DNA of 46,302 bases, taken from the IMG/VR virus record IMGVR_UViG_3300010396_000017, positions 1 through 46,302 of that record, one strand, 5' to 3'. This stretch comes from a virus. Positions 8,790-34,585 of this stretch are shown in pieces. The position numbers and the translations under genes were made by a program. Under the pieces are notes generated by a model that was given only the letters and a program-made list of their open reading frames with translations, did no database searches and was not told the DNA's origin. The number at the start of each line of letters is the position of its first letter. Position 1 is the stretch's first letter.

Positions 8790-10518
8790 CGTCTCCCCCA
8801 CCGACCTCGCCTATCGCCGATTCGTCGAAGGCTCCCTCCTGGCCCGGCGCGACAATCGCTATTCTTGGTGGACCCATTGGCGTGAACTCGCCGACTACTT
8901 CCTACCCCGCCGCTATCGCTGGCTGATCACTCCCAATATGCAGTCCCGCGGTTCGCCGATCAATCAACACATCCTCGATTCCTCAGGCGTCTTCTCGGCT
9001 CGGAACCTCGCCGCGGCTCTCCTGTCCGGCAAATGCTCCCCACTCCGGCCCTGGTTCCGCCTCAAGATCGATCACATCGACTCCACCCAGACCACCCCAG
9101 TCTCCCTCTGGTTGGCCGAGTGCGAACGCCTAATGTACCTCGTCTTCGCCGAGTCCAACTTCTACAACTCGATGGCCCAGTTCTTCTACGACCTCGTCAT
9201 CTTCGGCACGGCCGTCCTAATCATCTACGAAGACCACGGCGCAGTCATCAACTGCTACAACCCCTGCGCCGGCGAATACTACCTCGACCTCGATGGCAAA
9301 TACCGCCCGGTCCTGCTCTCACGTGAGTTCACAATGACCATCGGCGCCGTAGTGGGTGAATTCGGCTACGACAACTGCTCGGTCGCCACGCGTAAGGCCT
9401 ACGACACCCCCGACGGCTCCGGTCGCACGCGCGAGATCATCGTAGCCCACGACATCTCCCCCAACGACGACGGCCACGACTTCGGCATCTCCAACCGCTA
9501 CGCCTACCGCGAATGCTTCTGGGAATGGGGCGGTTCGACCTCACCCCAATCCGGTTCCCAAATGCCCCCGGCCTTCCTTCGCAAACGCGGCTACTTCGAC
9601 AAACCCAACATCGCCGTGCGATGGGACCTCGTCTCCAACGACCCATACGGCCGCAGCCCAGCGATGGACGGCTTAGGCGACCAGAAGCAACTCCAACTCG
9701 AGACCCGACGCAAGGCCCAGGCCATTGACAAGATGGTCAACCCGCCGCTGGTCGCCGACATCAAACTCAAGAACCAACCCGCCTCGCTCCTCCCCGGCGG
9801 CATGACCTACATCGCCGGCTTCGCCCAGTCCGGCAAGCCTGCCATCGGCACCATCTACGATACCAAGTTCCCTGTCCAAGAAATCGCCGAAGACCTCGCC
9901 GAGGTCCGCGAGCGCCTATCCAAGGTCTTCTACAACGACCTATTCCAACCCATCTCGCAATACGAAACCCGCTCTAACATCACCGCGACCGAGATCGATG
10001 CCCGGCGGGCTGAGGCCATGATCATGATTGGCCCGGCCTTGGAACGAATCGACAACGAGGGCCTCAAGCCGATCATCGAACGGGTCTGGGGCATCATGTC
10101 TCGCCAACGTGGCCCCAACGGCCAACCCCTACTTCCACCGGCCCCGCCTGAGATCGCTGGCCGCGACGTGAACATCGAATTCGTCTCCATGCTGGCCCAG
10201 GCCCAATCTGCAGCCGAGTCCGCCGGGATCGAACGCCTATTCCAGATCGCCGGAGGCCTCGTCGGCGTTGTCCCCGAAGCCATGGACAACATCGACGTTG
10301 ACTTCGCACTTGACAAATACTCCAGCCTGTTGAACAATGACCCTCGTATAATCCGGAGTCCGCAACAGTTGCAAGCGATCCGCCAGAAACGCGAACAGCA
10401 GGCCCAGGCCGCCCAGCAAGCGGCTCAGGCTGAGCAGCTATCCGCCGGGGCCAAGACCCTATCGGAGACCGACGTAGGCGGCGGCCGCAACGCACTCCAG
10501 TCCATGCTGGGTCAATAG
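8782..10518 (+). CDS. Portal (head-tail connector) protein, 578 aa
   Basis: The sequence matches the podoviral head-tail connector family: an N-terminal RRDNRYSWWTHWRELADYFLP segment, then GxSARNLAAALLSG and TPVSLWLAECERLMY, a central FFYDLVIFGTAVLIIYED strand-helix, and a Gln/Ala-rich C-terminus from about residue 530. Twelve copies normally form the ring through which DNA enters and leaves the capsid. The GTG at 8782 is preferred over a TTG at 8749 because it overlaps the preceding stop. The length is typical for BPP-1/T7-type portals. Confidence 0.93.
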   Translation: MANVSPTDLAYRRFVEGSLLARRDNRYSWWTHWRELADYFLPRRYRWLITPNMQSRGSPINQHILDSSGVFSARNLAAALLSGKCSPLRPWFRLKIDHIDSTQTTPVSLWLAECERLMYLVFAESNFYNSMAQFFYDLVIFGTAVLIIYEDHGAVINCYNPCAGEYYLDLDGKYRPVLLSREFTMTIGAVVGEFGYDNCSVATRKAYDTPDGSGRTREIIVAHDISPNDDGHDFGISNRYAYRECFWEWGGSTSPQSGSQMPPAFLRKRGYFDKPNIAVRWDLVSNDPYGRSPAMDGLGDQKQLQLETRRKAQAIDKMVNPPLVADIKLKNQPASLLPGGMTYIAGFAQSGKPAIGTIYDTKFPVQEIAEDLAEVRERLSKVFYNDLFQPISQYETRSNITATEIDARRAEAMIMIGPALERIDNEGLKPIIERVWGIMSRQRGPNGQPLLPPAPPEIAGRDVNIEFVSMLAQAQSAAESAGIERLFQIAGGLVGVVPEAMDNIDVDFALDKYSSLLNNDPRIIRSPQQLQAIRQKREQQAQAAQQAAQAEQLSAGAKTLSETDVGGGRNALQSMLGQ

Positions 10519-11574: not shown

Positions 11575-12618
11575 ATGGCTACCATTGGTTCTACGGCCCT
11601 GACCTACGCGGACTGGGCCAAGCGCATGGACGACGGTTACCGCGTCGCCATGATCATCGAACTCCTCTCGCAGACCAACGAAATCCTCGACGACATGCTC
11701 GTTGTCGAAGGCAACCTGCCGACCGGTCACAAGACGACCGTCCGGACCGGCCTGCCCCAGGCCACTTGGCGCCTGCTCAACCAAGGCGTCCCCAACGCCA
11801 AGTCCACCACCGCCCAGATCGTCGACACCTGCGGCAACCTCGAGACCTACTCGGTCATCGACAAGGACATCGCCGACCTCAACGGCAACACCGCCGAGTT
11901 CCGCCTATCCGAGGTCCGCGCGTTCCTCGAAGGCATGTCCCAACAGGTCGCCTCGACTCTGATCTACGGCAACCAGTTCGTGAATCCGGAACGCTTCACC
12001 GGCTTCGCCCCTCGCTACTCGACCAAGAACACCTCCAACTCGCAGACCGCCAACAACGTCCTCGACGCCGGCGGCACCTCCTCGACCAACACCTCGCTGT
12101 GGATCGTCGTGTGGGGCTCCGACACTTGGCATGCGACCTTCCCGAAGGGCAAGATCACTGGCCTCCAACACCGCGACATGGGCGAGTGGCCGGTCACCGA
12201 CTCCTCGTCCAACACCTACCAAGCCTACCGCGATCACTTCAAGTGGGAGATCGGTCTGGTCGGCCGTGACTGGCGCTACTGCGTTCGCATTGCCAACATC
12301 GACGTGACCCAGTTGACCGGCGTGAGCGCCGCCAACCTGATCAACCTGATCGTCCGCGGGCTCTACCGACTGCCGACGGCGCCTGTGATGGCCACCTCAA
12401 TCCAGACCTCCGACACCCCCGAGGTCCGGGCCGATATGGGCCGCACGGTCATCTACGGCAACCGCGTGGTTCGCACCTACCTCGACCTCCAGGCCATGAA
12501 CAAGACCAACGTCTTGCTCCAGCTGAAAGAGTTCGATGGCAAGACCGTCACCACCTTCCGCGGCGTCCCAGTCCGTACCTGCGACGCGATCCTCTCCAAC
12601 GAAACCCAGGTCGTCTAA
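11575..12618 (+). CDS. Major capsid protein (Bbp17-like), 347 aa
   Basis: Size, position after the scaffold and motifs (ALTYADWAKRMD near the start, ETYSVIDKDIADLNGN, FLEGMSQQVASTLIYGN, QHRDMGEWPVTD) match the BPP-1-type major capsid family with HK97 fold. It should form the icosahedral head. GGAG precedes the ATG. Codon use is strongly C-ending, as in highly expressed genes. Its 71-nt leader holds a hairpin, unusual in this compact region. Confidence 0.92.
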   Translation: MATIGSTALTYADWAKRMDDGYRVAMIIELLSQTNEILDDMLVVEGNLPTGHKTTVRTGLPQATWRLLNQGVPNAKSTTAQIVDTCGNLETYSVIDKDIADLNGNTAEFRLSEVRAFLEGMSQQVASTLIYGNQFVNPERFTGFAPRYSTKNTSNSQTANNVLDAGGTSSTNTSLWIVVWGSDTWHATFPKGKITGLQHRDMGEWPVTDSSSNTYQAYRDHFKWEIGLVGRDWRYCVRIANIDVTQLTGVSAANLINLIVRGLYRLPTAPVMATSIQTSDTPEVRADMGRTVIYGNRVVRTYLDLQAMNKTNVLLQLKEFDGKTVTTFRGVPVRTCDAILSNETQVV

Positions 12619-12630
12619 GGAGCCCCGCAT

Positions 12631-13188
12631 ATGATCCTCGACAACTCCCTTATGTTCTCGGGCACCTCAAACGGTGCCTCGGGCGGCATCACCTCTGGCG
12701 CAAACACCGACGCGCCGACGACTGGCACTCAGGTCGCGTCCAACGTCATCGACCTCGGCGTGACCTCCGGCGTCCCGTCCTCGGCCAACGGTGGCGGTGC
12801 TCGCGACATCGGCATCGGCGACGACCCGGCGATGAAGCTCTTGGTCAACGTCAACACGGCGCTGACCGGTGGCACTTCGCTCCAGGTCGACCTCTCCGGC
12901 GCCCCCGACAACGGCTCTGGCGCAGCCGGTTCCTACACCGTCATGTGGACCTCCCAGGCCATCGTCGAAGCCTCACTGATCGCCGGGGCCAACATCGCCA
13001 ACATCGATGTCCCCCGCACGATCCCCGGCCAGGCACCGCCGAGGTTCCTCCGCCTGCGCTACATCTCTGTCGGCACCCACTCCGCTGGTGCAGTCGAAGC
13101 CTGTATCGTCCTCGACCGGTTCGACCAAATCCAAGGCTCGACTGGCGCCCTCTCCGGCTATCCCGCCGGTACCACCGTCGCCAACTAA
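12631..13188 (+). CDS. Capsid cement protein, Bbp16-like, 185 aa
   Basis: The start MILDNSLMFSG, the SNVIDLGV segment and the C-terminal RFLRLRYISVGTHSAG resemble Bbp16-family cement/decoration proteins, which trimerise on the capsid surface. It is 12 nt after the capsid gene with AAGGAG upstream. The composition is Gly/Ser/Ala-rich and beta-structured. Confidence 0.82.
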   Translation: MILDNSLMFSGTSNGASGGITSGANTDAPTTGTQVASNVIDLGVTSGVPSSANGGGARDIGIGDDPAMKLLVNVNTALTGGTSLQVDLSGAPDNGSGAAGSYTVMWTSQAIVEASLIAGANIANIDVPRTIPGQAPPRFLRLRYISVGTHSAGAVEACIVLDRFDQIQGSTGALSGYPAGTTVAN

Positions 13189-13198
13189 GGAGAGTCAG

Positions 13199-13828
13199 AT
13201 GCTTTCCCGTCTCCTCGCTCTCCTTGGCCTGCTGGGGCTGCTCTCGACAGCCCCAGCAGTGGCCCAAGTCAATGTGGTCCCGGCCAGCGGCCTGATCACC
13301 AACATCCTCCGAGTCCCGACCTACACCGCCGTATCAGTCGGCCTCGTCCCGGCGGCTTCCGCCACGGACATCTTCTGCATCTCACCCGGCACGGCGAAGT
13401 CGATCTCGGTTCGCCAGGTGATCATCTCCGGCACCGCCGGTACGGCCATCACCACGCCGTTCGTCCTCTACCGTCGGGCCTCCCTCGACACCGGAGGCAC
13501 CGCGGCCACCGGCCTTGCCCTCCCCGTCGCCGGCGTCCACTCCACCAACGACCCGGCGTCCGGAGCCACGCTGACCGCCTACACGGCGAACCCGACCATC
13601 GTGGACTCCTCGCCCACGGCCCTCGGCGCTCTCCTCGTCGACCTCCCTGTGACCACTGCTGCTGGTGGCAACACCGAAGTCACTCGTACCTTCGGCACCG
13701 GAGTGGACTTCTTCAACAAAGGCCTCGACCTCCAGAAGAACACCACCCAGCAACTCTGCGTCAACCTCAACGGCGCCTCGGTCTCCTCCGGCGTCCTTGC
13801 CATCTCCATGACGTGGCAGGAGCAGTAA
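13199..13828 (+). CDS. Secreted-type structural-region protein, 209 aa
   Basis: Residues 1-25 are a canonical Sec signal peptide: Arg near the start, a Leu-rich core (LLALLGLLGLL), and a signal peptidase I site APAVA before QVN. The mature part is beta-rich, Thr/Ala-rich, with exactly two cysteines (FCIS, LCVN) that could pair. ATG 13199 follows GGAGAG; a longer open frame upstream belongs to overlap with the cement gene. It is the first of three consecutive genes with signal peptides. The function is unknown; it could be a secreted decoy or a virion component assembled after export. Confidence 0.75.
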   Translation: MLSRLLALLGLLGLLSTAPAVAQVNVVPASGLITNILRVPTYTAVSVGLVPAASATDIFCISPGTAKSISVRQVIISGTAGTAITTPFVLYRRASLDTGGTAATGLALPVAGVHSTNDPASGATLTAYTANPTIVDSSPTALGALLVDLPVTTAAGGNTEVTRTFGTGVDFFNKGLDLQKNTTQQLCVNLNGASVSSGVLAISMTWQEQ

Positions 13829-13829
13829 C

Positions 13830-14237
13830 ATGACCCGCCTGTGGCTGGCGCTAATCCTCGCCCTGGGCCTCGCGCCAGCCCAGGCTCAAACGCAGTTCGT
13901 CGTCCCGCCCAACGCCCCGGCAACGCCTGTCGTCTCTGCCGCAGCCGAAGGCTCACACGTCCTAAAGGGCTCGCCCGGAGCCCTTTATGGCCTTTACGTA
14001 ACCTCCGGCGCCTCAGCCGGGTTCGTAATGACCTTCAACGCCACCTCTGCGCCAGCCGATGGCGCAGTCACCCCGATCAACTGCGTCTCGGTCCCTGCCA
14101 ACTCCAGCGTCTCGCTCTGGTGGGGTCCACAGCCGCCTGAGTTTTACTCAACTGGCGTGGTTGCCGTGTTCTCGACCACCGGCTGTTTCACCAAGACCAT
14201 CTCAGCAACGGCCTTCTTCCACGCATTGGTGCAGTGA
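13830..14237 (+). CDS. Secreted-type structural-region protein, 135 aa
   Basis: This protein has a signal peptide (residues 1-19; LWLALILALGLAP core, cleavage after AQA before Q) and a small beta-sandwich-like mature part with two cysteines (INCVS, TGCFT). It starts 1 nt after the previous stop. The segment SHVLKGSPGALYGLYVTSG resembles short phage decoration-type domains, but I cannot name a family. Confidence 0.72.
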   Translation: MTRLWLALILALGLAPAQAQTQFVVPPNAPATPVVSAAAEGSHVLKGSPGALYGLYVTSGASAGFVMTFNATSAPADGAVTPINCVSVPANSSVSLWWGPQPPEFYSTGVVAVFSTTGCFTKTISATAFFHALVQ

Positions 14238-14776
14238 TGCGATTTGTTCTTCTCGCATTGATCTTGATCTGGTCCGGCTTCGCGACGGCCCAGCAGATCA
14301 CAATCCCGCCATCGCCTGTCGGCACCGCTGCTCCAGGCCAAATCCCCGGCACCGGCACCAACGACACGCCCTGCGTTGGCTGCGTTGGCGAAGTTATCGA
14401 GGCCGTCGCAGCCTCTGGTTCGATTTCCATGTCCAATGGAACCACAGCCGGGATCACTTCCATCACCCTAACCCCCGGCGATTGGGAGGTCTCAGGTGTA
14501 TGTGCTTTTACCCCAGCAGCTACAACCTCAGCTACTCAATACTTCTGTAGCCAGAACACAGCCGGGGCCACAACGCCAAACACCAATCCGGGTTTCTTTA
14601 CTCAAATTAACTTCGGTGCTGTAGTTACGGGCGGCTTCCAATTCTCAACACTTGCCGGAAGCCCCCAAACCTACCGCGTCTCGACGAACACAACCGTGTT
14701 CTTGAACGGCTTGGCCAACTTCACCGTCAGCACTATGACCGCCGGTGGCAAAATCCACGCGCGGCGTATGCGATAA
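14237..14776 (+). CDS. Secreted-type structural-region protein, 179 aa
   Basis: The signal peptide (FVLLALILIWSGF core) is cut after ATA before QQ. The mature protein has a Pro-rich linker, a CVGCVG motif and four cysteines in total, and a beta-rich domain (ISMSNGTTAGITSITLTPGDWEVSG) like those found in phage tail fibre or collagen-associated C-terminal domains. The ATG overlaps the previous stop by 1 nt (TGATG). Function unknown; possibly a receptor-facing appendage or an exported factor. Confidence 0.72.
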   Translation: MRFVLLALILIWSGFATAQQITIPPSPVGTAAPGQIPGTGTNDTPCVGCVGEVIEAVAASGSISMSNGTTAGITSITLTPGDWEVSGVCAFTPAATTSATQYFCSQNTAGATTPNTNPGFFTQINFGAVVTGGFQFSTLAGSPQTYRVSTNTTVFLNGLANFTVSTMTAGGKIHARRMR

Positions 14777-14791
14777 CATAGGAGACTACAA

Positions 14792-15301
14792 ATGGCCCGT
14801 TGGAAACTCGTTGCCCCTCACTACCTCAACGTCGAGGGCGTGAAGTGGGAATATTCCGAAATAGACCGCACGACCGGCAAGCCCCGCCGGGCCGTGTTTC
14901 CTGTCCCTAGCTTGCTCGACCCCGGCGACCCAGCCGACTGGAACCACCGCCAGGGCCGTGACGATGGCGAGGTCATTGTCACCAACGGCGGTGCCTCCGA
15001 CCCCCGCGATATCCGATTCACCGGCGACCCGACCCCCGATATGATCCCGCTCGATGACGAGGCCAAGGCCATCTCCGCCAGCTTCGCCTCACGCTGGCGC
15101 CACCCGATCGAATCCCTTCCCTCGACCTACTCCGATGCCCTGGTCGAAGACTTCCAGAAGGAAATCGCCGACCTCCGAACGTCCTCTGGACCGGCCAAGG
15201 TCGAGGGCATGTCCGAACTCCTCACCGCCATGACCGCGATGATGAAGCAGAACCAGGACATCCTCGCGGCGCTTGCCGCCAAGCCCGAGCGGAGGCTCTA
15301 A
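14792..15301 (+). CDS. Hypothetical structural-region protein, 169 aa
   Basis: The product begins MARWKLVAPHYLNV and contains KWEYSEIDRTTGK, FPVPSLLDPGDPADWN and a helical C-terminal third (MSELLTAMTAMMKQNQDIL). This arrangement is shared by proteins in the same position in related podoviruses; the function is unknown. AGGAGA precedes the ATG. There is no signal peptide, unlike its upstream neighbours. Confidence 0.75.
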   Translation: MARWKLVAPHYLNVEGVKWEYSEIDRTTGKPRRAVFPVPSLLDPGDPADWNHRQGRDDGEVIVTNGGASDPRDIRFTGDPTPDMIPLDDEAKAISASFASRWRHPIESLPSTYSDALVEDFQKEIADLRTSSGPAKVEGMSELLTAMTAMMKQNQDILAALAAKPERRL

Positions 15302-15458
15302 TGCCATCCAAATCCCCGGCCCAAGCCCGGCTGATGGCTGCCGCGGCCCACAACCCGAAGTTCGCCAAGCGCGTCGGCGTCCCACGTGGAGTTCCAAAGA
15401 GTTCAACTCGGCCGATACGAAGACCGGCATCCTGCGTAAGAAGCGCAAGAAGGGCTGA
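15301..15458 (+). pseudogene. Small basic protein, interrupted by an apparent frameshift
   Basis: From ATG 15301 the frame reads MPSKSPAQARLMAAAAHNP and continues to GVPK. At 15391-15400 (GTTCCAAAGA) the expected continuation, EFNSADTKTGILRKKRKKG with stop at 15456-15458, lies in the -1 frame. Joined, it gives a 52-aa basic protein like those next to tail genes in related phages. Lys-AAG could slip to AAA, but this is not a classical slippery heptamer, so a real mutation, a sequence error or a programmed shift are all open. The unshifted frame would run on to 15663 over another gene. Confidence 0.6.
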
Positions 15459-15463
15459 GCCCA

Positions 15464-15826
15464 ATGGGCATTATCCAAGTCAACCCCGGTTCGCCACTAA
15501 CTGTTGGTGGTGGATCGGGGAACAAAATCTCAGGCTTCCAAGCCATCACCACGTCCCCGGCGTTGGTCCTACCCGCCAACCCTTCGCGCCAGTCGGTGAC
15601 CTTCCACAACCCCGGCACGGTCGACATCTACGTCGCCCCGACGACCTTGATCACCAACGGTAGCCAGTCCAACTTCGCCCCGTCTCCTTCCATCCTCGGC
15701 GGGACCTTCCTAATCTACGCCAATGGCGGCTCCCTCACCGTCACCGGCGAATGCCAATGCGGTTGGCAAGCCTTTGCCGCAACTGGCTCGACTAATTTCC
15801 TGACCGTTATGGAGTCCAACGTCTGA
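15464..15826 (+). CDS. Hypothetical structural-region protein, 120 aa
   Basis: This is a beta-rich, Gly/Ser-rich protein (SRQSVTFHNPGTVDIYVAP, FLIYANGGSLTVTGE) with one CQC motif. Its strands resemble a single jelly-roll or decoration-type domain. No family is recognised. It overlaps the tailspike start by 1 nt, so it is probably co-translated with it. Confidence 0.7.
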   Translation: MGIIQVNPGSPLTVGGGSGNKISGFQAITTSPALVLPANPSRQSVTFHNPGTVDIYVAPTTLITNGSQSNFAPSPSILGGTFLIYANGGSLTVTGECQCGWQAFAATGSTNFLTVMESNV

Positions 15827-17625
15827 TGCGTAGGCTCCTGCTAACGCTGGCCCTTCTACTCGCCCCTGGCCTTGCCTGGGCCCAGAACCCAACCTGTCCA
15901 ACCCGGCCGCCCGGCGACAGCACCAACGCCTGCGCTAGCACAGCCTTCGTCCAACAGGCCACCAATGGCTCCGGCACCGTTTTCACGCCCGAGCAATTCG
16001 GCGCGCCGAAGGTCTGCAACCCTTCGCTTGCAGCCGACACCCCCATTGCATCAGCCATCACCGCAGCTAAGGCTGCCTCGGCCACCTATGGCACAGCCAC
16101 CCTTCTATTCCAGTGCAACTACAAGACCACTAACACAGTCACCTTAGCAAGCTGGCTGGGAACCATCAACGTCCAATTCCCAGGCTCAGCCGGGTTCAAT
16201 CTCAATTCATCTGCAAACGGAGTTGAATCGTTTCTGGTTGGCGGCGGCGGGCCGACTCTCACCTTCACTAACCTAACCGGCGATCTCTCGCCGGGCGTAA
16301 CAGGCATTACCGTCGCATCCACTGCTGCGTTCCACAAAGGCGACTATATCGCTCTCTATGGCAGCACCGGTATCCATACCTACATCCATCTCGAACTCAA
16401 CCGCATCGCATCAATCAACTCCAGCACCTCGATCTCGCTCGAACGTGTTGTCGAATTTCCTGTGACCGTAGCCACGGCGATGCCAGCTGGCTATCTCTCC
16501 ACGACCCCATATATCCAACTCGTCAGCATGGAGACTGGCAAGTTGGTAATGGACGGTGGAACCTTTGATGGAACCAACTCAACCGGAACTAGCACCGGTC
16601 TCGAACTTGAGTTCCTAGCTGATGCACAGGTCTCCCGCATCCGCACATCCAACTTCACCGGTACCGGCAGCCAAGGCTACGCTGGCCAATATCTATACCA
16701 AGGCAGCCTAACCAACTTCGTCGACAACGGCTCGGGCAACGCAGCAAACTCCTCCGCAGCGCTCAACCTGTCCACAATCACCGGCCTTAACCTCGACGGG
16801 TTCATCTCGAACAATTCGCCGAACTTCGGCATCTTGATCGACTACATGAACGGTTCTAGCCAGTCAAACGTCGCCTCCTACACTGCCAACGGCCGCGGGG
16901 TCAAGTTCTGGTCCAACTGCGGCAACTACCAGATCAACATCACCGCCAACCAGAACCTGTTCACAGGAATCGACTACGACAGCGTCAGCCTTTACAACCA
17001 AGGCTTCAACTTCAAGGCTACCAGTAACGGTAACGAAGGCCTGGCCTTCCTCGGCACTGGCAGTCAGTTTAATTGGATCAATGGCGTCAATGTTCGACTA
17101 AATACCTTCGGCGATGTATCTTTCTTTGGCTCATTTGCTAATGATATAAATAATACAGTTACTGGGCTAAACAATGATGCAAATGTCACCTCAGCCTTTG
17201 GTGGAGGCAACAACATTGTCTCAATTCAAGGCAAATCTTGGGCCAATGTTAACTCAGTTACCAATACTTCGGTTCCAAATAACTCAGCAACCAGCGTTGT
17301 CTTTGACACAGTCGTCATAGATCCAGGCAATCAATATAACACATCTACTAATACCTTCACAGTCAAGTTCCCTGGTGTCTATAACATTCACATCGTTGTT
17401 ACATTCTCGGCTGCAATTTCGATCTCCAGTTCGACAACCATCTCAACAGCCGGCACGACCAACATCTCTCAATCCTTCGTCGGCGGATCGTCGAACACCT
17501 TCGTTCTCGACCGAACAGCCTATCTCTCGGTTGGCGATACCGTTACAGCCACTATCCTACAACAAAGCGGCTCGACCCAGACCGTCACCGGCGCAAGCTC
17601 CCACTTCGCCGTGACCCAGCAATAG
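15826..17625 (+). CDS. Tailspike/fibre with N-terminal signal peptide, 599 aa
   Basis: Residues 1-19 are a Sec signal peptide (LLLTLALLLAPGLAWA, cut before QN). Next comes a short CPTRPPGDSTNACASTAFV segment of the kind used in tail fibre linkers, then an FGAPKV start of a pectate-lyase-like beta-helix. Asn/Ser/Gly-rich repeats fill residues about 100-480. The last 130 residues form a separate beta domain. Spikes of this type bind and may cut surface polysaccharide. A signal peptide is unexpected for a virion protein. The A+T content rises around 17100-17400, hinting at module exchange. Confidence 0.8.
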   Translation: MRRLLLTLALLLAPGLAWAQNPTCPTRPPGDSTNACASTAFVQQATNGSGTVFTPEQFGAPKVCNPSLAADTPIASAITAAKAASATYGTATLLFQCNYKTTNTVTLASWLGTINVQFPGSAGFNLNSSANGVESFLVGGGGPTLTFTNLTGDLSPGVTGITVASTAAFHKGDYIALYGSTGIHTYIHLELNRIASINSSTSISLERVVEFPVTVATAMPAGYLSTTPYIQLVSMETGKLVMDGGTFDGTNSTGTSTGLELEFLADAQVSRIRTSNFTGTGSQGYAGQYLYQGSLTNFVDNGSGNAANSSAALNLSTITGLNLDGFISNNSPNFGILIDYMNGSSQSNVASYTANGRGVKFWSNCGNYQINITANQNLFTGIDYDSVSLYNQGFNFKATSNGNEGLAFLGTGSQFNWINGVNVRLNTFGDVSFFGSFANDINNTVTGLNNDANVTSAFGGGNNIVSIQGKSWANVNSVTNTSVPNNSATSVVFDTVVIDPGNQYNTSTNTFTVKFPGVYNIHIVVTFSAAISISSSTTISTAGTTNISQSFVGGSSNTFVLDRTAYLSVGDTVTATILQQSGSTQTVTGASSHFAVTQQ

Positions 17626-18395: not shown

Positions 18396-18604
18396 TGTCC
18401 ACCCACGACGGCGGTAAGCCCAACGTCAAACCTCTCCCCTACTCGCCGCCCCAGGGCCCGACCGGCATGATGCGCCAAGGGCCTGGTCTCGGCGGCGACA
18501 ACTACGGCCCTTGTGGTACGCAGGGCGAGCATTCGATTTCGCCGCGCGAATCGGGCCGTCCTGGCCTTGGCGGTCCCAACATGGGCAAAGGCACCAACCG
18601 TTGA
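18395..18604 (+). CDS. Small Gly/Pro-rich protein, 69 aa
   Basis: MSTHDGGKPNVKPLPYSPP and later GLGGDNYG and GRPGLGGPNMG give a flexible, glycine-rich peptide of a kind found just before tail tubular protein A in related phages. AGAGGAAA precedes the ATG. Role unknown. Confidence 0.68.
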   Translation: MSTHDGGKPNVKPLPYSPPQGPTGMMRQGPGLGGDNYGPCGTQGEHSISPRESGRPGLGGPNMGKGTNR

Positions 18605-19680
18605 CCACCAATACTGACATCGTCAATCGAGCCCTGCAAACGTTCGGCACTCGTACCACCGTGACGGATGGCGAACTTGCTGCGGGCTCGACTAACGAGG
18701 CTATCCAGGCGAACCTGATCTTGACCGAGATCAGGGACGACCTGCTGCGCATGGCCCCATGGGACTGTGCCTTAAACTACGCCAACCTAACCTACATCTC
18801 CTCCGTTCCTGGCACGCCCGAGAACACCTCGCCCGCGACTCCGCTGTGGCAAAAGGGCCAACCCGCACCGCCTTGGGCCTACGAATACCAATACCCAATC
18901 GATTGCCTTCGCGCCTGCTTCATCATTCCAGCAAACCAAACAGGCTTTGCTGGCGCCACCCCAATCACCACCGCGGTCACCGGCGGAGCCCCAGCGTTCT
19001 GGTATGGCCAGCCGGTCAAGTTCAAAGTTGCCCTAGACCAATTCTACCATGTCACCGCTGCAACAGTCCTCGATGGCGGAACCGGCGCGGCCGTTGGCGA
19101 CATCCTAACACTCCAGCCCGGCCCAACGACTTCGCCACCAATCGGTGCCCCTGCCCAACTAATCGTCACCGCTGTCTCCGGCGGAGTGATCACCGGAATC
19201 GCTGTTGTCAACACAATCTACAACGAAAACGGCACTGGCGGCAGCTACTTCTCCATCCAGCCGAACCCGCAGGTCCAAAGTGCAACAACCGGGTCTGGAA
19301 CTGGCTCGGCGTTCAATCTTACCTGGGGGCCCAAGTCCGACCAGCGCGTGATCCTCACCAATCAAGAGTTCGCCACGCTTGCCTACTGCCGTGGCGTTAC
19401 CGATCCGAACGTGATGGATACGCTGTTCCAACGTGCTTGGATCAACTCGCTCGGTGCTCGGCTGTGCATGGCCCTTACCGGTGATAAGGCCTTGGCCAAC
19501 GGCCTAATCCAACTCGCCAACGCCGACATCGCTCAAGCACGGATGGCCGACGGCAACGAAGGCCTTACCATCAACGACGTGACCCCGGATTGGCTTCGCA
19601 TTCGCGGTGTCAACTGGACCCAGAACTACTCCTCGCCGTGGCAAGGCTTTGACTGGGGCGGGTATTTCCCGTCGTTCTAA
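18601..19680 (+). CDS. Tail tubular protein A-like (gp11-like), 359 aa
   Basis: The N-terminus (TDIVNRALQTFGTRTTVTD, then IRDDLLRMAPWDCAL) and C-terminus (FATLAYCRGVTDPNVMDTLFQRAWINSLGARL) are typical of podoviral tail tubular protein A, the ring between portal and nozzle. Residues about 150-245 are an inserted beta module (DGGTGAAVGDILTL to GTGSAFNLTWG) also present in the next protein. The start is TTG at 18601, overlapping the previous stop by 4 nt; an upstream open frame to 18511 lies over the previous gene. Confidence 0.85.
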   Translation: MTTNTDIVNRALQTFGTRTTVTDGELAAGSTNEAIQANLILTEIRDDLLRMAPWDCALNYANLTYISSVPGTPENTSPATPLWQKGQPAPPWAYEYQYPIDCLRACFIIPANQTGFAGATPITTAVTGGAPAFWYGQPVKFKVALDQFYHVTAATVLDGGTGAAVGDILTLQPGPTTSPPIGAPAQLIVTAVSGGVITGIAVVNTIYNENGTGGSYFSIQPNPQVQSATTGSGTGSAFNLTWGPKSDQRVILTNQEFATLAYCRGVTDPNVMDTLFQRAWINSLGARLCMALTGDKALANGLIQLANADIAQARMADGNEGLTINDVTPDWLRIRGVNWTQNYSSPWQGFDWGGYFPSF

Positions 19681-22481
19681 TGGCACAGCCAACCATCCAA
19701 TACTCCTTCAACTCCGGCGAATGGGCTCCTCAACTCTACGGCCGAGTTGACATTGAGAAATACCATTCCGGAGCGGCCTTGCTCCGGAACTTCTTCGTCG
19801 ACTACCGAGGTGGTGCCAGCACTCGGACCGGGACCCAGTACATAATCCGGGCCTTGTTCGACAACCAGATCGTTCGGCTGATCCCGTTTCAAGCCACCAT
19901 CTCAGCCGGGTATGTCTTGGTCTTCGGCGATCGCTACATTCGCTTTATTGCCAATGGCGCTCCTGTCCTCGAGAACGCAATCAACATCACTGGTGCAACC
20001 AAGGCCAACCCTTGCGTCATATCAGCCGTCAACTCCTACTCAGCCGGTGATTGGGTCTTCATCTCTGGCGTAGCCGGGATGACGCAGCTGAACGGCAAAT
20101 ACTACATCGTCGCGGCTGCGACCGGCACCACCGTAACCCTACACGACTTGTTCGGTAACCCTGTTGACTCGACAGCCTATGGCACCTATACCTTCGGTGG
20201 AACCATCGCTCGCGTCTATACCTTAACCTCCCCTTACGCCGCCAACGATCTCGCGCTGCTCAAGTTCGCCCAAAACGTCTCTGAGCTTGTGCTGACGCAT
20301 CCAAACTATCCGCCGGCGGTGCTAACCATCTTTGCTCCTAATAGCTGGACCCTTGCTGACATCATCTTCGGTTCAACCGTGGCTTCGCCAACCGGGCTAA
20401 ACGTCACCACCACCCTAGCCGCAGGCTCGACCAACTATTCCTACATCGTCACCGCCGTTGATGCCAATGGCCAAGAGAGCCCGGTCTCCGACGCCTTCCC
20501 GTTGCTATCGAAGCAAAACATCGCCACGACCTCGGGCACCAATACCATCACCTGGAGCCCAGTCGCCGGCGCAGCCAGCTACAACGTCTACAAGACCAAC
20601 ACCACACAGGTCAATCCGGTCCCGATCGGCGTCCCGTACGGCTTCATTGGCAACACCACTAGTACAACGATGGCAGATTCCAACATCGTTGCGGATTTCT
20701 CCCAAGGTCCGCCGGTGGTCCGGAACCCATTCGCCACTGGTGCAGGCGTAGGCGCAATCGTAATCGCCGCGCCCGGTTCCTTCACGACCACTCCCACGCT
20801 GACCATCGGCGCTCCTCCGGCTGGTGTAACTGCGACAGCCGTCCCGATCATGTCTGCCGCTACGATCTCATCCTTCGGCTCGCCCGGCGCGGGCTACACC
20901 GTCGGCGATCAAGTCCTGTTCCCCGGCGGCGTCATCATTGATGTCCTCACCGTCGGTGGTGGCGGCTCCATTGCCACAGCAGCCATCGTCTTCCAAGGCG
21001 CCATCAACCCGATCCCAGCCAACCCAGTCAGCACCAACGGCGGCGGCACAGGCTCCGGCGTCACGGTTAACTTCACTTGGAAAATCTCCGATACGATCAT
21101 CACCGATCCTGGCTCAGGCTACCTGTCTGCACCGAGCGTCAACTCCACGCCCGGCGGAGGCACATCCCTTTCCTCTTCCCTTGGCGCAGCCGGTAACGGC
21201 AACCCATCTTGTTGCGCGTTCTTCCAAGAGCGTCTCGTCCTGGCTGCTCCTCTAGCTGCTCCCCAGACGCTGTACTTCTCTCAGCCGGGGAACTACTCCA
21301 ACTTCAACGTGACCAATCCAATCCAGGACGACGACGCTATCACTGCGTCGATCATCTCGGGTCAGCTGAACACAATCAAATCCATGATCCCACAGCCAGC
21401 CGGGCTTATTGTCCTGACCGACGGCTCGTCTTGGCTCATTAACGGCGGCAGCTTCGGCTCGGCCATTACCCCATCCTCGATTGTGGCCAACGCTCAGTCC
21501 TTCAATGGCGCCAATGACGTTCCGCCAATCGTGGTGGTCTACGACCAACTCTACGTCCAATCCAAAGGCTCGGCCGTTCGCGATTCGCTGTACAACTTCT
21601 ACGCCAACGTCTACACCGGCACCGACATCTCCATCCTGTCTTCGCATCTGTTCTTCGGCTTCGAGGTCCTTGAATGGGCCTATGCCGAGGAGCCCTTCAA
21701 GGTCGTCTGGGCTGTGCGCAACGACGGCGAACTCCTCAGCCTGACCTTCTCAAAGGAACAAGAGTTCACCGCCTGGGCCCATAGCGATACGCCAAATGGA
21801 TTGTTCAAATCCGTTGCCACGATTGTTGAAAACACAGCCCAGGGCTTTGTCAACGCAGTCTACGTCGTAGTCTCCCGAGTCATCAACGGCTTCTCAGTCC
21901 AATACATCGAACGCTTCGCTGAACGCTATATGCCAAACGGCGTAGCCGATGCTTGGACCGTCGACTGCGGCCTGCAATACTCCGGCCCACCGATTTCCAA
22001 CTTCTCAGGTGGCGAATACCTCGTTGGCCAAACTGTCAACGGCCTCGCTGACGGAATACCGATCACTCCCTTCGTGATGCCAGCCTCCGGCAACTTCACC
22101 TTGCCTTCGGCTGCCTCCAAGGTCACGGTCGGCCTATCCTTCACCTGTGAACTCGAGCCGCTCCCAATCGATACCGGGAACCCGACCATTCAGTCGAAGA
22201 TGAAGAAAATCCCAGCCGGTACCGTTCGCGTTGCCGAGACCCTGGGCCTCCTGATCGGCACCGATTCCTCGAACCTCGTGCCAATGAAAGACCTAATTCG
22301 CGGCAACGTGGGCTCGATGACCAACCAAGTCGTCACCGACCTCGTAACCGGCGATGCCCGAACCTTCCTCGACCCAAAGTGGCAGGAAACCGGCCAATAC
22401 CTGATTCGCCAAACCCTTCCCTACCCCGCCACCATCCTTGCCGTTGTCCCGCAACTCACTGTCGGAGACACAGCCAAATGA
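19680..22481 (+). CDS. Tail tubular protein B-like (nozzle, gp12-like), 933 aa
   Basis: The start QPTIQYSFNSGEWAPQLYGRVDIEKYHSG and GGASTRTGTQYI identify the podoviral nozzle protein. A fibronectin type III-like domain lies at about residues 237-315 (SYIVTAVDANGQESPVS, WSPVAGAASYNVYK). A GxGYTVGD beta module follows at about 395-470, related to that in tail tubular protein A. Conserved nozzle elements resume after about 500 (CCAFFQERLVLA, FEVLEWAYAEEPFKVVWAVRNDGELLSL). It forms the distal tail tube through which DNA passes. Confidence 0.88.
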   Translation: MAQPTIQYSFNSGEWAPQLYGRVDIEKYHSGAALLRNFFVDYRGGASTRTGTQYIIRALFDNQIVRLIPFQATISAGYVLVFGDRYIRFIANGAPVLENAINITGATKANPCVISAVNSYSAGDWVFISGVAGMTQLNGKYYIVAAATGTTVTLHDLFGNPVDSTAYGTYTFGGTIARVYTLTSPYAANDLALLKFAQNVSELVLTHPNYPPAVLTIFAPNSWTLADIIFGSTVASPTGLNVTTTLAAGSTNYSYIVTAVDANGQESPVSDAFPLLSKQNIATTSGTNTITWSPVAGAASYNVYKTNTTQVNPVPIGVPYGFIGNTTSTTMADSNIVADFSQGPPVVRNPFATGAGVGAIVIAAPGSFTTTPTLTIGAPPAGVTATAVPIMSAATISSFGSPGAGYTVGDQVLFPGGVIIDVLTVGGGGSIATAAIVFQGAINPIPANPVSTNGGGTGSGVTVNFTWKISDTIITDPGSGYLSAPSVNSTPGGGTSLSSSLGAAGNGNPSCCAFFQERLVLAAPLAAPQTLYFSQPGNYSNFNVTNPIQDDDAITASIISGQLNTIKSMIPQPAGLIVLTDGSSWLINGGSFGSAITPSSIVANAQSFNGANDVPPIVVVYDQLYVQSKGSAVRDSLYNFYANVYTGTDISILSSHLFFGFEVLEWAYAEEPFKVVWAVRNDGELLSLTFSKEQEFTAWAHSDTPNGLFKSVATIVENTAQGFVNAVYVVVSRVINGFSVQYIERFAERYMPNGVADAWTVDCGLQYSGPPISNFSGGEYLVGQTVNGLADGIPITPFVMPASGNFTLPSAASKVTVGLSFTCELEPLPIDTGNPTIQSKMKKIPAGTVRVAETLGLLIGTDSSNLVPMKDLIRGNVGSMTNQVVTDLVTGDARTFLDPKWQETGQYLIRQTLPYPATILAVVPQLTVGDTAK

Positions 22482-28600: not shown

Positions 28601-30156
28601 AGGCCAAGGCCGATGTCATGTACGAGAACCTGTCTGGCGTGGCTCCTGAGCCTGTTCCAATCGATCCCATCGATACCCCGTATGGTCAACAGGCTGGCTG
28701 GTACTATCCCGTCATCTATCATCCGGTCTTTGAGGGCGCCTCGCGCAAGCTGATGGGCCGTGATCCGCTTGAGCAGGACAACTACCATCGGGCAACAACC
28801 CCGGCTGGGTACACCAAGTCCCGCACGGGTTATGCCGCTCCGCTTGCGCTAGACCTCGACATGATGCCGGTTCGGATGCGGCAGATGCTTCATGACATCG
28901 CGTTCCGGACGCCTGTTATTCAGGCTGGGAAGATATTCTACGATCCAAGCATACGCGCGGCGATTACAAAGCACTTCGGTACCGAATACCGAGAGATGCT
29001 GATCCCATACCTCCGCGATGTTGCCAACGCAGCCAACTACCGAAGCGATGCACAATGGGTGGGCACCCAGGTGTCGGAGTTCCTGCGCCAGAACATCATT
29101 GCGACACTAATCGGCCTAAACCCAGGCACAGTCCTCAAGCACGGCCCGACCGCTGCGATCAACTCAGTGTCCGAAGTCGGGGCGATGAATTTCCTCCGAG
29201 CAGCTAAGGGCCTAATGTCGATCAATGCTGAGACCGGCGAGACCAACTGGGCCTTCGCCATGCGGAACTCGGAGGAACTCCAGCGCAGGCATCGGCATTA
29301 CAACGAGACCTTAGGCGGCGCTCAGCAGAAGGTGATGGGCGAGGAGTCGCTGCGAGATCAAATCATCAAGTTCGGATCGACCCCGGTTGCCATCTCGGAC
29401 CTCCTATCCGCCGTCCCAACTTGGATGGCGAAGTACGAAGATGCAATGCGATCCGGCGAAGACCACGGCACGGCGGTGTTCGAAGCTGATCGGTCCGTTC
29501 GGCGCGCCCACGGATCATCCGTCATTACCAATCGGCCAGCCGTGATGCGACAAGGGCCGATGATGTCTTGGCTAGCCTCAGTCTATGGGTTCTTTAGCCA
29601 CATCATGAATCGCCAGTACGAGCTTGTGTGGAAAGCTGGCGATGCCCTGGGGATGATCAAGGAAGGGAACGCAGCCGAAGGCGCGAAGCAACTGGCTGGG
29701 GCTACAGCTGGGCTGTTCTCCTACGTGATCTTCCCAGCGTTGATCGAGGAACTCGTTACTCCGATGTCGAATGACCAGCATGAGTCGTGGGGGAAGAAGG
29801 CTGCGAAAGGCTTGGCCTATACCGTCTCAGCCAGCTGGATCGGTATCCGCGACGTGATCTCAGCAATGTTGATGGGTCGTGATCCGGCAACTGGGCTTCT
29901 GACAACAACAGCCAAGGCCGCAACGGACTTCGCGCGAGACCTGTCTAAAGACCGGCCGTTCTCGAAGCAACACGCAGGGAATATTATCCAACACGGAGCC
30001 ACCATGATCGGCGCGGCCACCGGCCTAGTCAATGCCCAAGTTGGCCGGACTGGCAAGTTTATCTACAACTACGCCACTGGCCAAGAACATCCACACGGTC
30101 TATGGCAATGGCTACATGGGCTGAGATTTGGAACAACAAAGGAGCGAAAGCGATGA
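25645..30156 (+). CDS. Large internal (ejection) protein, gp16-like, 1503 aa
   Basis: This is a very long, mostly helical protein typical of the largest podoviral ejection protein. No protease or transglycosylase motif is visible. The first 450 residues are charged and modular, residues about 690-860 are coiled-coil-rich, and the last 600 contain hydrophobic helices (QLAGATAGLFSYVIFPALIEEL, YTVSASWIGIRDVISAML) that could insert in the inner membrane. The middle resembles large polyvalent protein modules. It is expected to leave the capsid first and build the trans-envelope channel. It overlaps the previous gene by 4 nt. Confidence 0.85.
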   Translation: MSILDAAGLSQPEEPKVPGILSAAGLDPATDQATARVQTSADANPDQAAKSISIGDSLGVPPAAVNQDFKNFERIHGVQTNSGIVTDNPAIKGYINNHPLAASVSKDDLPQLDRVSQSIAQAAEPSIWQRMFEGAKAGAGEAPLELSAADRKNFPAFAKFWDTLHLDSYKSPVGVANALLQAPGAAVGGVAAGIGVIAERLGMSSGDSARLARDLGIWGQGLMIESGAAGSVYESMKPYIQSGKPPPVGLHPDIDAIKADQAKADVDNLQQALAQSEASKTRERSPDLYADFVRQVTDGKIGVSADAVRQLYGDKAPAPDDGVLGWVPRIQEQLTAAEATGGDVEIPIADWLAKVDPKVAQGLNDFIRTRPEGVTLSEAQVESKTGTSAVDPATAVREANALPRPMDEREVFERANAIGMTQDQYARYLRLIEKQRGEDEAYQLRKLTEAERKRQTAEWNDNAREVRSAVVEEFNSRPEFAADAALRADKVKLQTSAVPEELRPALRQFLSKDGIHPDELASAYGYQTGSELVSGLAELNEARKATGKNPEAFRRSLLDAEVNRRMEAAYGPLSENIIEAAKEQVLTGTQLDLLHEETLALGARAGAELPLPKATLQRQVREAFGQKTLGEISSDRLLADAGRAGRQAELALLKGDAVEAFRQKQRQYYATIMAREAKELEAQVERFNKLAKQFSAREIKSVDQDYSNWIHDILLRIGRSVKRSIQDLAGAIERSEHKTLEDFVAYKEGHDMRELPVAEFLMNPEFRKSFDDLSADEFRALNDSVKALAKNGRDEKKATKAGEEADLDEVRNQMIKSLRTFAEKHYDAAGGRWLGPLPPRLAKPLRTYLVLHLQLESLFNRWDRGDPKGVFTQYIVRELATAANYEAALEREFSGYLRALADKADLRERIPAGPFKNPINPEDPFPLTRKNLRAILLNAGNASNMDKLARGYKTTPEAIRAWLDQHATKEDWQWAQGIGDIFAKIKAKADVMYENLSGVAPEPVPIDPIDTPYGQQAGWYYPVIYHPVFEGASRKLMGRDPLEQDNYHRATTPAGYTKSRTGYAAPLALDLDMMPVRMRQMLHDIAFRTPVIQAGKIFYDPSIRAAITKHFGTEYREMLIPYLRDVANAANYRSDAQWVGTQVSEFLRQNIIATLIGLNPGTVLKHGPTAAINSVSEVGAMNFLRAAKGLMSINAETGETNWAFAMRNSEELQRRHRHYNETLGGAQQKVMGEESLRDQIIKFGSTPVAISDLLSAVPTWMAKYEDAMRSGEDHGTAVFEADRSVRRAHGSSVITNRPAVMRQGPMMSWLASVYGFFSHIMNRQYELVWKAGDALGMIKEGNAAEGAKQLAGATAGLFSYVIFPALIEELVTPMSNDQHESWGKKAAKGLAYTVSASWIGIRDVISAMLMGRDPATGLLTTTAKAATDFARDLSKDRPFSKQHAGNIIQHGATMIGAATGLVNAQVGRTGKFIYNYATGQEHPHGLWQWLHGLRFGTTKERKR

Positions 30157-30653
30157 AAGAACCGAGTTGGTACACCTGGGCTCAGAAGGAGCTTGGGCAA
30201 AAGGAAGAACCGGAGAACCGAGGGCCGGTCGTCCGGCGATACATCGCGACGGGCAAATGCGGAGCCGAAGGCGATCCGTGGTGTGCGATCTTCGTCAACG
30301 CCGCGTTGGAGTCCCAGGGCATTCGCGGGACCCGGTCGCCGAGTAGCCAGAGCTTCACCCACGATTCGCATTTTGTTCGTATCAACGGGCCAGCCCTTGG
30401 CTGCATCGTTGTGTTCTGGCGCATCTCGCCGCATTCCGGCTTGGGCCACGTTGGCTTCTACTGCTCAGAGACCGCCGGGTACATCGAGACCCTGGGTGGC
30501 AACGAACAGGACGCGGTTCGCCGAGAGCTCTTGGCCAAAAAGGGCACCCACTTCGGCCTCGTCGGATTCTACTGGCCCAAGGACATACCGATGCCACTGA
30601 CTGGGCCAATCTTCCACACTGGAACTGTAGAACAAGGAGGTAAAGTGACATGA
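30153..30653 (+). CDS. Endolysin, NlpC/P60- or CHAP-type, 166 aa
   Basis: This cysteine peptidase fold belongs to the TIGR02594-like group: PWCAIFVNAAL carries the catalytic Cys (about residue 44), GLGHVGFY the His (about residue 104), and the LGGNEQDAV segment follows. It should cut peptidoglycan peptides at lysis. There is no signal sequence, so release needs a holin, consistent with the next gene. ATG 30153 overlaps the previous stop by 4 nt; a longer frame upstream lies in the ejection protein. Confidence 0.85.
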   Translation: MKEPSWYTWAQKELGQKEEPENRGPVVRRYIATGKCGAEGDPWCAIFVNAALESQGIRGTRSPSSQSFTHDSHFVRINGPALGCIVVFWRISPHSGLGHVGFYCSETAGYIETLGGNEQDAVRRELLAKKGTHFGLVGFYWPKDIPMPLTGPIFHTGTVEQGGKVT

Positions 30654-30952
30654 CTTCGGAACAAATCCAGCAATGGATTCGGATTGTGATCTACGCCATC
30701 GCTGGCGCGGTGGTGCAACATGGCTTTGCCAACGAGGCTGTGGCGCAGCAGGCGGCAGGCTTCGCGGTCCTCCTTGCCAACGGCGCGTGGACTGTGTATG
30801 GCAACCGCTTCGTCGCTAGGTTGAACGAGTTGGTAAAGTCAGGGCAGGTGAAGGGCGTTGTCACAACGCCTGAAATGGCCCAGGCCACGCCCAGCGACAA
30901 GATCGTTGCCTCGGTTCAAGACCTTCCACCCGCAGCCAAGCTGCCGCAATAG
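30650..30952 (+). CDS. Putative holin (Pam3-gp28-like), 100 aa
   Basis: Residues about 10-50 hold one or two hydrophobic helices (IRIVIYAIAGAVVQHGF, AAGFAVLLANGAWTVYGN) followed by a charged tail, as in the Pam3-gp28 type of putative holin. Its place directly after the endolysin (4-nt overlap) supports control of lysis timing. Confidence 0.7.
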   Translation: MTSEQIQQWIRIVIYAIAGAVVQHGFANEAVAQQAAGFAVLLANGAWTVYGNRFVARLNELVKSGQVKGVVTTPEMAQATPSDKIVASVQDLPPAAKLPQ

Positions 30953-30960
30953 GAGACGAC

Positions 30961-31347
30961 ATGAAGAAGCTTATCATTCTATTGGCCTTGGTCCTACCCC
31001 TAGGGGCCTGCGCCAATAGCCAACTCGGCCAGTTTCTGACCACGGGCGTTGCCAACCCGGTGACTAAACAGGGCCTGTACGACTTTGAGAACGGCATGAT
31101 CCTGGCCTTCGCCGGGCTCAATGTGTACAAGAAATCCTGCATCGCCGGGGCCATCCCAGCCGGGTGTCGCGATGTGATCGTCAAGCTCCAAGCCTACACG
31201 CGGCAAATCCCGGCTGAACTCAAGGTGGTCCGTGGCTATGTCAAGAACAACGACACAGTCAATGCCCAGCTGGCCTGGGCCACCCTCAACGACCTCATGA
31301 CCAACTTCAAGGCCCAAGCGGCCGCCAACGGTGTACAGGTGCAGTGA
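30961..31347 (+). CDS. Lipoprotein in the lysis cassette, 128 aa
   Basis: A type II signal peptide (MKKLIILLALVLPLGAC) ends in the lipobox LGAC at residues 14-17. The mature part is helical with two more cysteines (KSCIAG, AGCRD). Location after holin and endolysin suggests an outer-membrane-anchored lysis factor such as an o-spanin, but it is longer than most and no inner-membrane partner with a matching design is clear. It could also be a superinfection-exclusion lipoprotein. Confidence 0.72.
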   Translation: MKKLIILLALVLPLGACANSQLGQFLTTGVANPVTKQGLYDFENGMILAFAGLNVYKKSCIAGAIPAGCRDVIVKLQAYTRQIPAELKVVRGYVKNNDTVNAQLAWATLNDLMTNFKAQAAANGVQVQ

Positions 31348-31568
31348 TGGATGTAGCAGCAGTTCTGGCCCTTATCGCTAAGGGCATCTCCGTAGCCGAG
31401 GCCATTGTGCAGGTTGGTGGTGAAGCCGTTCCAGCGTTCCAGGCCATCAAAGCCCTAATCACCGGCGCGCAGCAGGGCACGTTGACTGATGACCAGCTGA
31501 CCCAGACCGAGGCCTTGCTAGATCAGATGATCGCGGATTTCAACCTCGATCTCCCACCCGCTGCATAA
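31347..31568 (+). CDS. Small hypothetical protein, 73 aa
   Basis: The peptide has an N-terminal hydrophobic helix (VAAVLALIAKGISVAEAIVQ) and an amphipathic C-terminal helix. ATG 31347 overlaps the previous stop by 1 nt. It may be a membrane-associated partner in lysis. No family recognised. Confidence 0.62.
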   Translation: MDVAAVLALIAKGISVAEAIVQVGGEAVPAFQAIKALITGAQQGTLTDDQLTQTEALLDQMIADFNLDLPPAA

Positions 31569-31585
31569 CGAACGAGGTCGAGGTA

Positions 31586-31924
31586 ATGCCGCATGAAATT
31601 CCCGAACGCACTACCTCGACCTTACTTCTAGATATAATGCAGCAACTATCGGATGTGAACTCGCGGATGAATGTCGCGGACGAGCAACGCATTCGGATCA
31701 TGAAGACCGTCGACAAGATCGAGCAGAAGACCGAGATCATTCCGGTTTTAGAAGAGCGCCTAGATGCGATCGAGCCGGAGATGACGAAGTCGAGGGAGTT
31801 CCGCCTTAAGATTGAAGGCGGAGCGGTTCTGGCCCGCGGCTTCTGGCTGGTTGGCGGAGGCTTGGCTTTCTTCCTACTCCAACACGTCTGGGATTTCTTA
31901 ACTAAATTTCCGTCCCAGCGCTAG
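31586..31924 (+). CDS. Coiled-coil protein with C-terminal membrane helix, 112 aa
   Basis: Residues 10-75 form a coiled coil (LLLDIMQQLSDVNSRM, VDKIEQKTEIIPVLEERL). One transmembrane helix lies at about 82-103 (GFWLVGGGLAFFLLQHVW). This topology fits a small lysis accessory or a holin-like protein. GAGGT precedes the ATG. Its last 23 nt overlap the end of the convergent leftward ATPase gene. Confidence 0.7.
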   Translation: MPHEIPERTTSTLLLDIMQQLSDVNSRMNVADEQRIRIMKTVDKIEQKTEIIPVLEERLDAIEPEMTKSREFRLKIEGGAVLARGFWLVGGGLAFFLLQHVWDFLTKFPSQR

Positions 31925-34583: not shown

Positions 34584-34585
34584 TG

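Follow-up and report, generated by a model that had tools for sequence, protein, structure and literature searches.

We propose that the tail fibre of a podovirus, one of a large group of uncultured soil phages, is made as two polypeptides in two cellular compartments, with the distal half exported and rejoining its partner at lysis, and we give this reading a probability of roughly 0.55. The virus is IMG/VR record IMGVR_UViG_3300010396_000017, a linear record of 46,302 bases that was analysed whole (the "window"; GC, guanine plus cytosine, 59%) and whose genes are named here by their start positions. Between its homologues of Bbp16 and Bbp14 lies a stretch of ~5.3 kb, the "slot", that contains all four genes of a signal-peptide cluster (13199, 13830, 14237 and 15826) and a short open reading frame (ORF), 15464, without a signal peptide. 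The short 15464 product, a putative anchor, would remain cytoplasmic and become part of the virion. Translation of the distal receptor-binding half, 15826, would begin at an overlapping start codon; Sec would export the product, which would be cleaved between Ala-x-Ala and Gln and would fold in the periplasm, forming disulfides. The distal fibres would be stored there until holin and endolysin opened the inner membrane and brought virions into contact with them; they would then dock on the anchor through their short conserved mature N-terminus, and the particle would be complete at or after lysis. The fibre tip 14237 likely acts in the same complex; 13199, a predicted jelly-roll, and 13830 would be exported accessories, perhaps decorations, whose role is less certain. 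Sequence itself shows the signal peptides, their conservation, the paired cysteines, the split and fused genes and the distal homology; from there we infer compartment, docking, timing and infectivity.

Signal peptides in the slot

The initial annotation had described four N-termini of the Sec, signal peptidase I type, each with Ala-x-Ala followed by Gln, and the ORF starts and a rule-based caller agree with it. The predicted signal peptides are MLSRLLALLGLLGLLSTAPAVA before QVN in 13199, MTRLWLALILALGLAPAQA before QTQ in 13830, MRFVLLALILIWSGFATA before QQI in 14237 and MRRLLLTLALLLAPGLAWA before QNP in 15826. Our home-made caller requires a basic n-region, an uncharged 9-residue hydrophobic core and an A-x-A-type site. 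It made 6 calls among 400 window ATGs followed by at least 60 open codons, and it called 4.4% of composition-preserving shuffles of such N-termini. The window ORFs of at least 90 residues that it called were these four, the lipoprotein-like lysis gene 30961 and one weak, spurious ORF; the window holds no further signal-peptide cluster.

Relatives were collected by a capsid protein search of viral contigs (588 matches, 80 kept), and slot statistics refer to 63 loci, related and hence not independent, that have 2 kb or more of slot sequence. The expectation that related phages would keep signal peptides in this block was borne out, with at least one called gene in the slot of 57 of the 63 loci. 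Calls were made for 151 of 493 slot genes, 15 of 414 genes upstream and 3 of 77 downstream, and the exported slot genes (119 distinct proteins) form several families, not one. Isolated or named relatives mostly have no such genes in the slot; one hydrophobic call was made in the slot of the Caudoviricetes record vir555. Inspection by eye rejected true absence in five of the six loci without a call, where genes have GTG starts or shapes missed by the rules. Only L051 truly lacks a signal-peptide gene in its slot. In that locus (9047-9500, contig G687) an HNH-type gene stands precisely at the position of the exported-spike start after a 15464-type anchor; a spike-like fragment rich in Cys is found at the contig end, upstream of the terminase.

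Two other readings were considered and set aside. Start-codon error was rejected, since homologues with only 22-67% identity to 13199 still have signal peptides. Lysogenic conversion finds no support either: Pfam detected no integrase in the ORFs scanned, and the genes sit among late structural genes.

Signal-peptide genes also occur in other arrangements. On the minus strand of L200 (12846-14869; G688 32846-34869) a second pair of them lies just upstream of the large terminase, where the window has none, and L212 (9803-13194; G689 29803-33194, also minus strand) resembles L200. Each of two Bombella prophages, L089 (13439-15793) and L102 (13613-15589), has one large signal-peptide gene in the slot (785 and 659 residues, respectively).

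Cysteines and the +1 residue

The cysteine counts given earlier for 13199, 13830, 14237 and 15826 (2, 2, 4 and 5) hold, and all of these residues fall within the mature parts. Among exported proteins reduced to less than 50% identity, the cysteine number is even in 62, odd in 4 and zero in 7, compared with 38, 58 and 87 for non-exported genes of the same loci (Fisher p 2e-13). Cysteine content is 1.64% in exported versus 0.66% in non-exported proteins. Paired cysteines are gained and lost together, as expected of an oxidising compartment. In the 13199 family both relocate jointly (FCIS/LCVN versus ICSL/CxFEW placements), and of 55 copies of the 15826 module CPTRPxGDSTNAC, 52 have both, 3 have neither and none has one alone.

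The residue exposed by cleavage is Gln in 95 of the 119 slot proteins. This preference, as far as predicted sites can tell, matches a Terriglobia genome and not those of Alphaproteobacteria: A-x-A followed by Gln was found in 17 of 32 called signal peptides of a Terriglobia metagenome-assembled genome (MAG), in 2 of 20 of Agrobacterium and in 1 of 12 of Acetobacter. The same MAG contains a capsid relative (L085) that is 82% identical to the window protein, and its GC content of 59% equals that of the window. An acidobacterial host is likely, not proven, because MAG binning error is possible. In the Terriglobia MAG sample (G001, loci L130-L149) about half of the called signal peptides expose a +1 Gln, resembling the Q-rule of Bacteroidetes. 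The published rule, in which Gln at +1 is cyclised by glutaminyl cyclase, concerns Bacteroidetes (PMC5837995), and a text search of that paper found no mention of Acidobacteria.

Export of the slot proteins, as predicted from their N-termini, is strongly supported because conservation is clade-wide, cysteines are paired and even in number, and the +1 Gln is host-like.

Split and fused fibres

The stop codon of 15464 overlaps the start codon of 15826 (TGATG, 15824-15828), and 13830 and 14237 are coupled by a stop/start overlap in the same manner; the initial annotation had missed both junctions. Anchors of the 15464 type have a signal-peptide gene directly downstream in 71 of 81 loci, and none is fused to it. 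Members of the 15826 family keep the signal peptide and a module of ~23 residues and then diverge completely, a layout that, as aligned, is the pattern of receptor-binding proteins. The fibre identity of 15826 rests on this module, on its position and on a C1q-like end (30.5 bits against a cut-off of 23.7; C1q chains in the PDB matched at an expect value, E, of 2e-6). An AlphaFold2 (AF2) model built with alignment A3 reached a mean confidence score (pLDDT) of 34, and no fold was assigned beyond the C1q-like end. Homology to tail fibres was found for 14237, with phrog_11393, and for exported spikes of relatives, with anchored fibres.

In some related loci 15464 is replaced by a second anchor type (profile A6, motif LGPSLGW), and the two types occur together in no locus (15 and 25 loci first listed). 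A scan with the A6 profile, which overlaps some loci examined earlier, found 15 fused ORFs without a signal peptide and 14 split ones followed by a signal-peptide gene; the remainder were one short ORF without a signal-peptide gene and one cut by the contig end. The anchor of a fused form is the first ~140 residues of one long fibre ORF that has no signal peptide. Split ORFs stop at TGWY(S/T)G, at the point where fused ORFs enter a Gly-rich linker, and the signal-peptide gene then starts inside the last few codons of the anchor. In the exported forms the virion-anchoring domain is not in the same polypeptide, and the anchor is a separate ORF.

The distal parts of the two forms are homologous. 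Those of L019 and L022 are 54-56% identical to that of L043 (E 3e-37 and 1.5e-45), the fused C-terminus of L073 matches window protein 14237 (E 3e-7; both belong to phrog_11393), and several fused distal parts are tail fibres by PHROGs. Fused distal parts have a median cysteine content of 0.33%, against 1.77% when the distal part is exported (p 1e-6). The type of N-terminal module tracks the type of anchor in 18 of 18 and 5 of 5 cases. In L304 a 15464-type anchor precedes a spike without a signal peptide, and the module of this spike, SPTRAAGDSTNANATTAFV, has neither cysteine.

No other fibre-sized unassigned ORF lies beside the structural genes of the window; the large unassigned ORFs that remain either sit among replication genes of the opposite strand or have no hits. 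One genotype (L276-L280, L282) has a 15464-type anchor with no spike gene after it, which implies a spike encoded at another site or absent.

The small exported proteins

The AF2 model of 13199 is a predicted jelly-roll (pLDDT 77). Its top viral fold matches are uncharacterised phage proteins (E 4e-12), and PDB matches have middling Z scores (best 8.6, HFTV1 turret 8.4, KHP40 cement 7.1) in which the turret and cement entries lie among C1q heads and coat proteins. Judging from the model, 13199 may decorate the virion, form part of a fibre or act on the host. A profile of 13199 had almost no matches in 385 genomes from the class of G004 and 297 from the phylum of G001. The A6 anchor profile had no match in the same two genome sets, a result that, without a positive control, shows nothing.

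Protein 14237 is homologous to the C-termini of anchored fibres. In the phrog_11393 family, which includes the fibres of Dickeya phage BF25/12 and BDU-MI-1, the C-terminal tip is matched by residues 28-179 of 14237 (alignment A2), but 14237 is a lone tip behind a signal peptide, unlike those fibres, and its cysteines 46, 49 and 104 have no counterpart in the fibre tips of BcepC6B, BDU-MI-1, BF25/12 and Mulvp2. Searches of the phage collection with tblastn gave no match for 13199, 13830, 15464, 15826 or the L068 anchor, nor for one small exported family from relatives. A relation to exclusion proteins of the Spackle or Llp type found no such Pfam or PHROG hit.

Comparison with known systems

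A cultured parallel is Tunturi_2 (PP885685, L205 9802-22744), a podophage of the acidobacterium Tunturiibacter psychrotolerans in which five signal-peptide genes (gp12, gp13, gp14, gp16 and gp17) stand close together in the structural block; gp15 has no signal peptide. Some of these genes are annotated as tail fiber, pectin lyase or virion structural protein. Neither signal peptides nor virion mass spectrometry came up in a text search of the source paper. Sec-type signals also occur, as in the window, on fibre-like proteins of BcepC6B (gp19) and Xanthomonas phage PBR31 (orf035). In the parts of the published accounts available to us, the genes of these three phages are not discussed as exported fibres (PMC11924767, PMC10975493), and a partial literature search found no description of exported, split tail fibres.

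Other phages export proteins for different ends. T4 Spackle and T5 Llp carry cleavable signals, as does the T4 antiholin RI (PMC8385771). All three affect the timing of lysis or superinfection; none belongs to a fibre or is paired with a virion anchor. Phages of Porphyromonas gingivalis have Q-rule signal-peptide genes without assigned function, read as host-modifying in the available part of their description (PMC10367356). Cleavage there would expose Gln, fitted to host export as in the window, but that part reports no link to a fibre anchor, unlike the relatives of the window.

Alternative explanations

Exported fibre parts might act free, on the host side, as decoys that bind glycans of the surface or envelope receptors and block superinfection or the re-adsorption of progeny to debris, and never join virions. 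This alternative survives best, and we consider it rather improbable. It accommodates the signal peptides and disulfide-type cysteine pairs, and 14237 is a bare tip with neither anchor nor shaft. The tips of BcepC6B gp19 and PBR31 orf035, close to lysis genes, adjoin a conventional anchored tailspike; because that tailspike is present, the exported tip is not the sole receptor-binding protein, and in those phages, and perhaps in the window, it might act free and on the host. In the window and its relatives, however, the only fibre found has the exported spike in place of its distal half and retains an anchor half that is translationally coupled to the spike; a virion lacking this spike would have no known receptor-binding protein.

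Secreted depolymerases or adhesins, digesting or binding extracellular polysaccharide round the infected cell and aiding release and spread, are an unlikely account. The proteins have the size of fibres or spikes and hypervariable C-termini, and one exported protein of Tunturi_2 is annotated as a pectin lyase; but anchor coupling and fused homologues indicate a virion part, a Sec signal alone would leave the protein periplasmic until lysis, and Pfam recognised no catalytic family in 15826. That the N-termini are hydrophobic segments unused for export, such as membrane-contact peptides of virion proteins, is highly improbable: cleavage is a prediction, but the host-like +1 Gln (95 of 119; Terriglobia 17 of 32), the enrichment and parity of cysteines and the natural non-exported copy in L304 without the cysteine pair all speak for export.

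Several points weigh against the split-fibre model as well. No relationship could be detected between the two anchor families, nor did any solved homologue turn up, and the label "anchor" is suggested by position, fused forms and mutual exclusion. Anchor and module are adjacent, and their co-segregation may reflect linked inheritance. The cysteine number of 15826 is odd, the window may be incomplete (seven related contigs examined span 36-50 kb), the tips of BcepC6B and PBR31 stand beside a tailspike, and the case is drawn from sequence and predicted structure. The model also leaves unexplained the small exported proteins of fused-fibre loci such as L068; since they accompany a fused, unexported fibre there, they need not be fibre parts. 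Among the roles listed in the initial annotation, joining virions after lysis suits the large protein best, because 15826 appears to be the distal part of a fibre that keeps its anchor in the cytoplasm. Coating, superinfection block, decoy or secreted depolymerase may apply, above all to the three small proteins.

Gene order in the window

By gene content the window is a podovirus of the BPP-1/epsilon15 type, with a GP7-type capsid and homologues of Bbp16, Bbp14, Bbp13, Bbp12 and Bbp10 in order (Table 1). Its major capsid protein is ~47% identical to that of BPP-1 and 56% identical to that of epsilon15-like Salmonella phages, and capsid, cement and tail genes follow the same order in both. In BPP-1, BcepC6B and phiV10, by contrast, the Bbp16-to-Bbp14 stretch is only a few hundred bases, and known phages of the type have no signal-peptide genes there. 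Fibre genes of BPP-1 and BcepC6B follow the gene in the Bbp10 position, whereas the window has no fibre gene after Bbp10. Gene 30961 comes after the lysozyme-like 30102 and the holin-like 30650 (Pfam Phage_holin_10). The DNA polymerase is present as two ORFs (33108-35683, minus strand) matching successive parts of phrog_17 (548-785 and 807-1231), and the two remain separate genes in related contigs.

Table 1. Features of the window in order of position; export, fold and role are predictions.
Feature	Position	Strand	Evidence or remark
Terminase	start 6861
Portal	start 8749
Major capsid protein, BPP-1 Bbp17/epsilon15 gp7 type, no signal peptide	11575..12618	+	Pfam GP7 E 2.7e-130; phrog_212 E 2.4e-82
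Bbp16 (cement-type) homologue, no signal peptide, left slot border	12631..13188	+	Pfam Bbp16 E 8e-12
Exported jelly-roll protein, 209 aa, cysteines 60, 187	13199..13828	+	family alignment A1; AF2 model; fold searches
Signal peptide of 13199, 22 aa, AVA-Q	13199..13264	+	Q23 invariant in family
Exported small protein, 135 aa, two cysteines	13830..14237	+	exported homologues in L005, L042, L085
Signal peptide of 13830, 19 aa, AQA-Q	13830..13886	+	
Exported tail-fibre tip domain, 179 aa, four cysteines	14237..14776	+	phrog_11393 tail fibre C-terminus E 1.1e-15
Signal peptide of 14237, 18 aa, ATA-Q	14237..14290	+	
Conserved non-exported protein (MARWKL...), role unassigned	14792..15301	+	homologues in 47 loci; no cysteine, no signal
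Anchor-like cytoplasmic protein, 120 aa	15464..15826	+	family A5; no signal
Exported tailspike/fibre, 599 aa	15826..17625	+	modular, hypervariable C-terminus
Signal peptide of 15826, 19 aa, AWA-Q	15826..15882	+	
Mature N-terminal module QNPTCPTRPPGDSTNACASTAFV, proposed docking, cysteines 24, 36	15883..15951	+	conserved in A3
C1q-like C-terminal domain, residues 479-594	17260..17607	+	Pfam C1q E 4.8e-7
Bbp14-type tail protein, right slot border	18511..19680	+	phrog_394 E 5e-31
Bbp13-type tail protein	19680..22481	+	phrog_376 E 2.6e-162
Bbp12, Bbp11, Bbp10 homologues	starts 22887, 23468, 25645
Small lipoprotein-like gene (MKKLIILLALVLPLGACANSQ, LGAC)	30961-31347	+	candidate outer-membrane spanin

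Implications

The reducing cytoplasm is the accepted site of assembly for tailed-phage virions. The split-fibre model can be tested directly, because the isolate Tunturi_2 carries a comparable signal-peptide structural block. That secretion-dependent completion of the virion is general among many tailed phages, chiefly those of Acidobacteriota but also others, is a tentative extension that we regard as possible. On that extension, particles would become infectious only after their distal fibres had been exported, oxidised in the periplasm and joined at lysis, and fibres from one cell could arm the virions of another. The split-fibre model itself, if true, would mean a second assembly compartment, with lysis as an assembly step; receptor-binding parts would be stored apart from virions and might be exchanged between phages after lysis.

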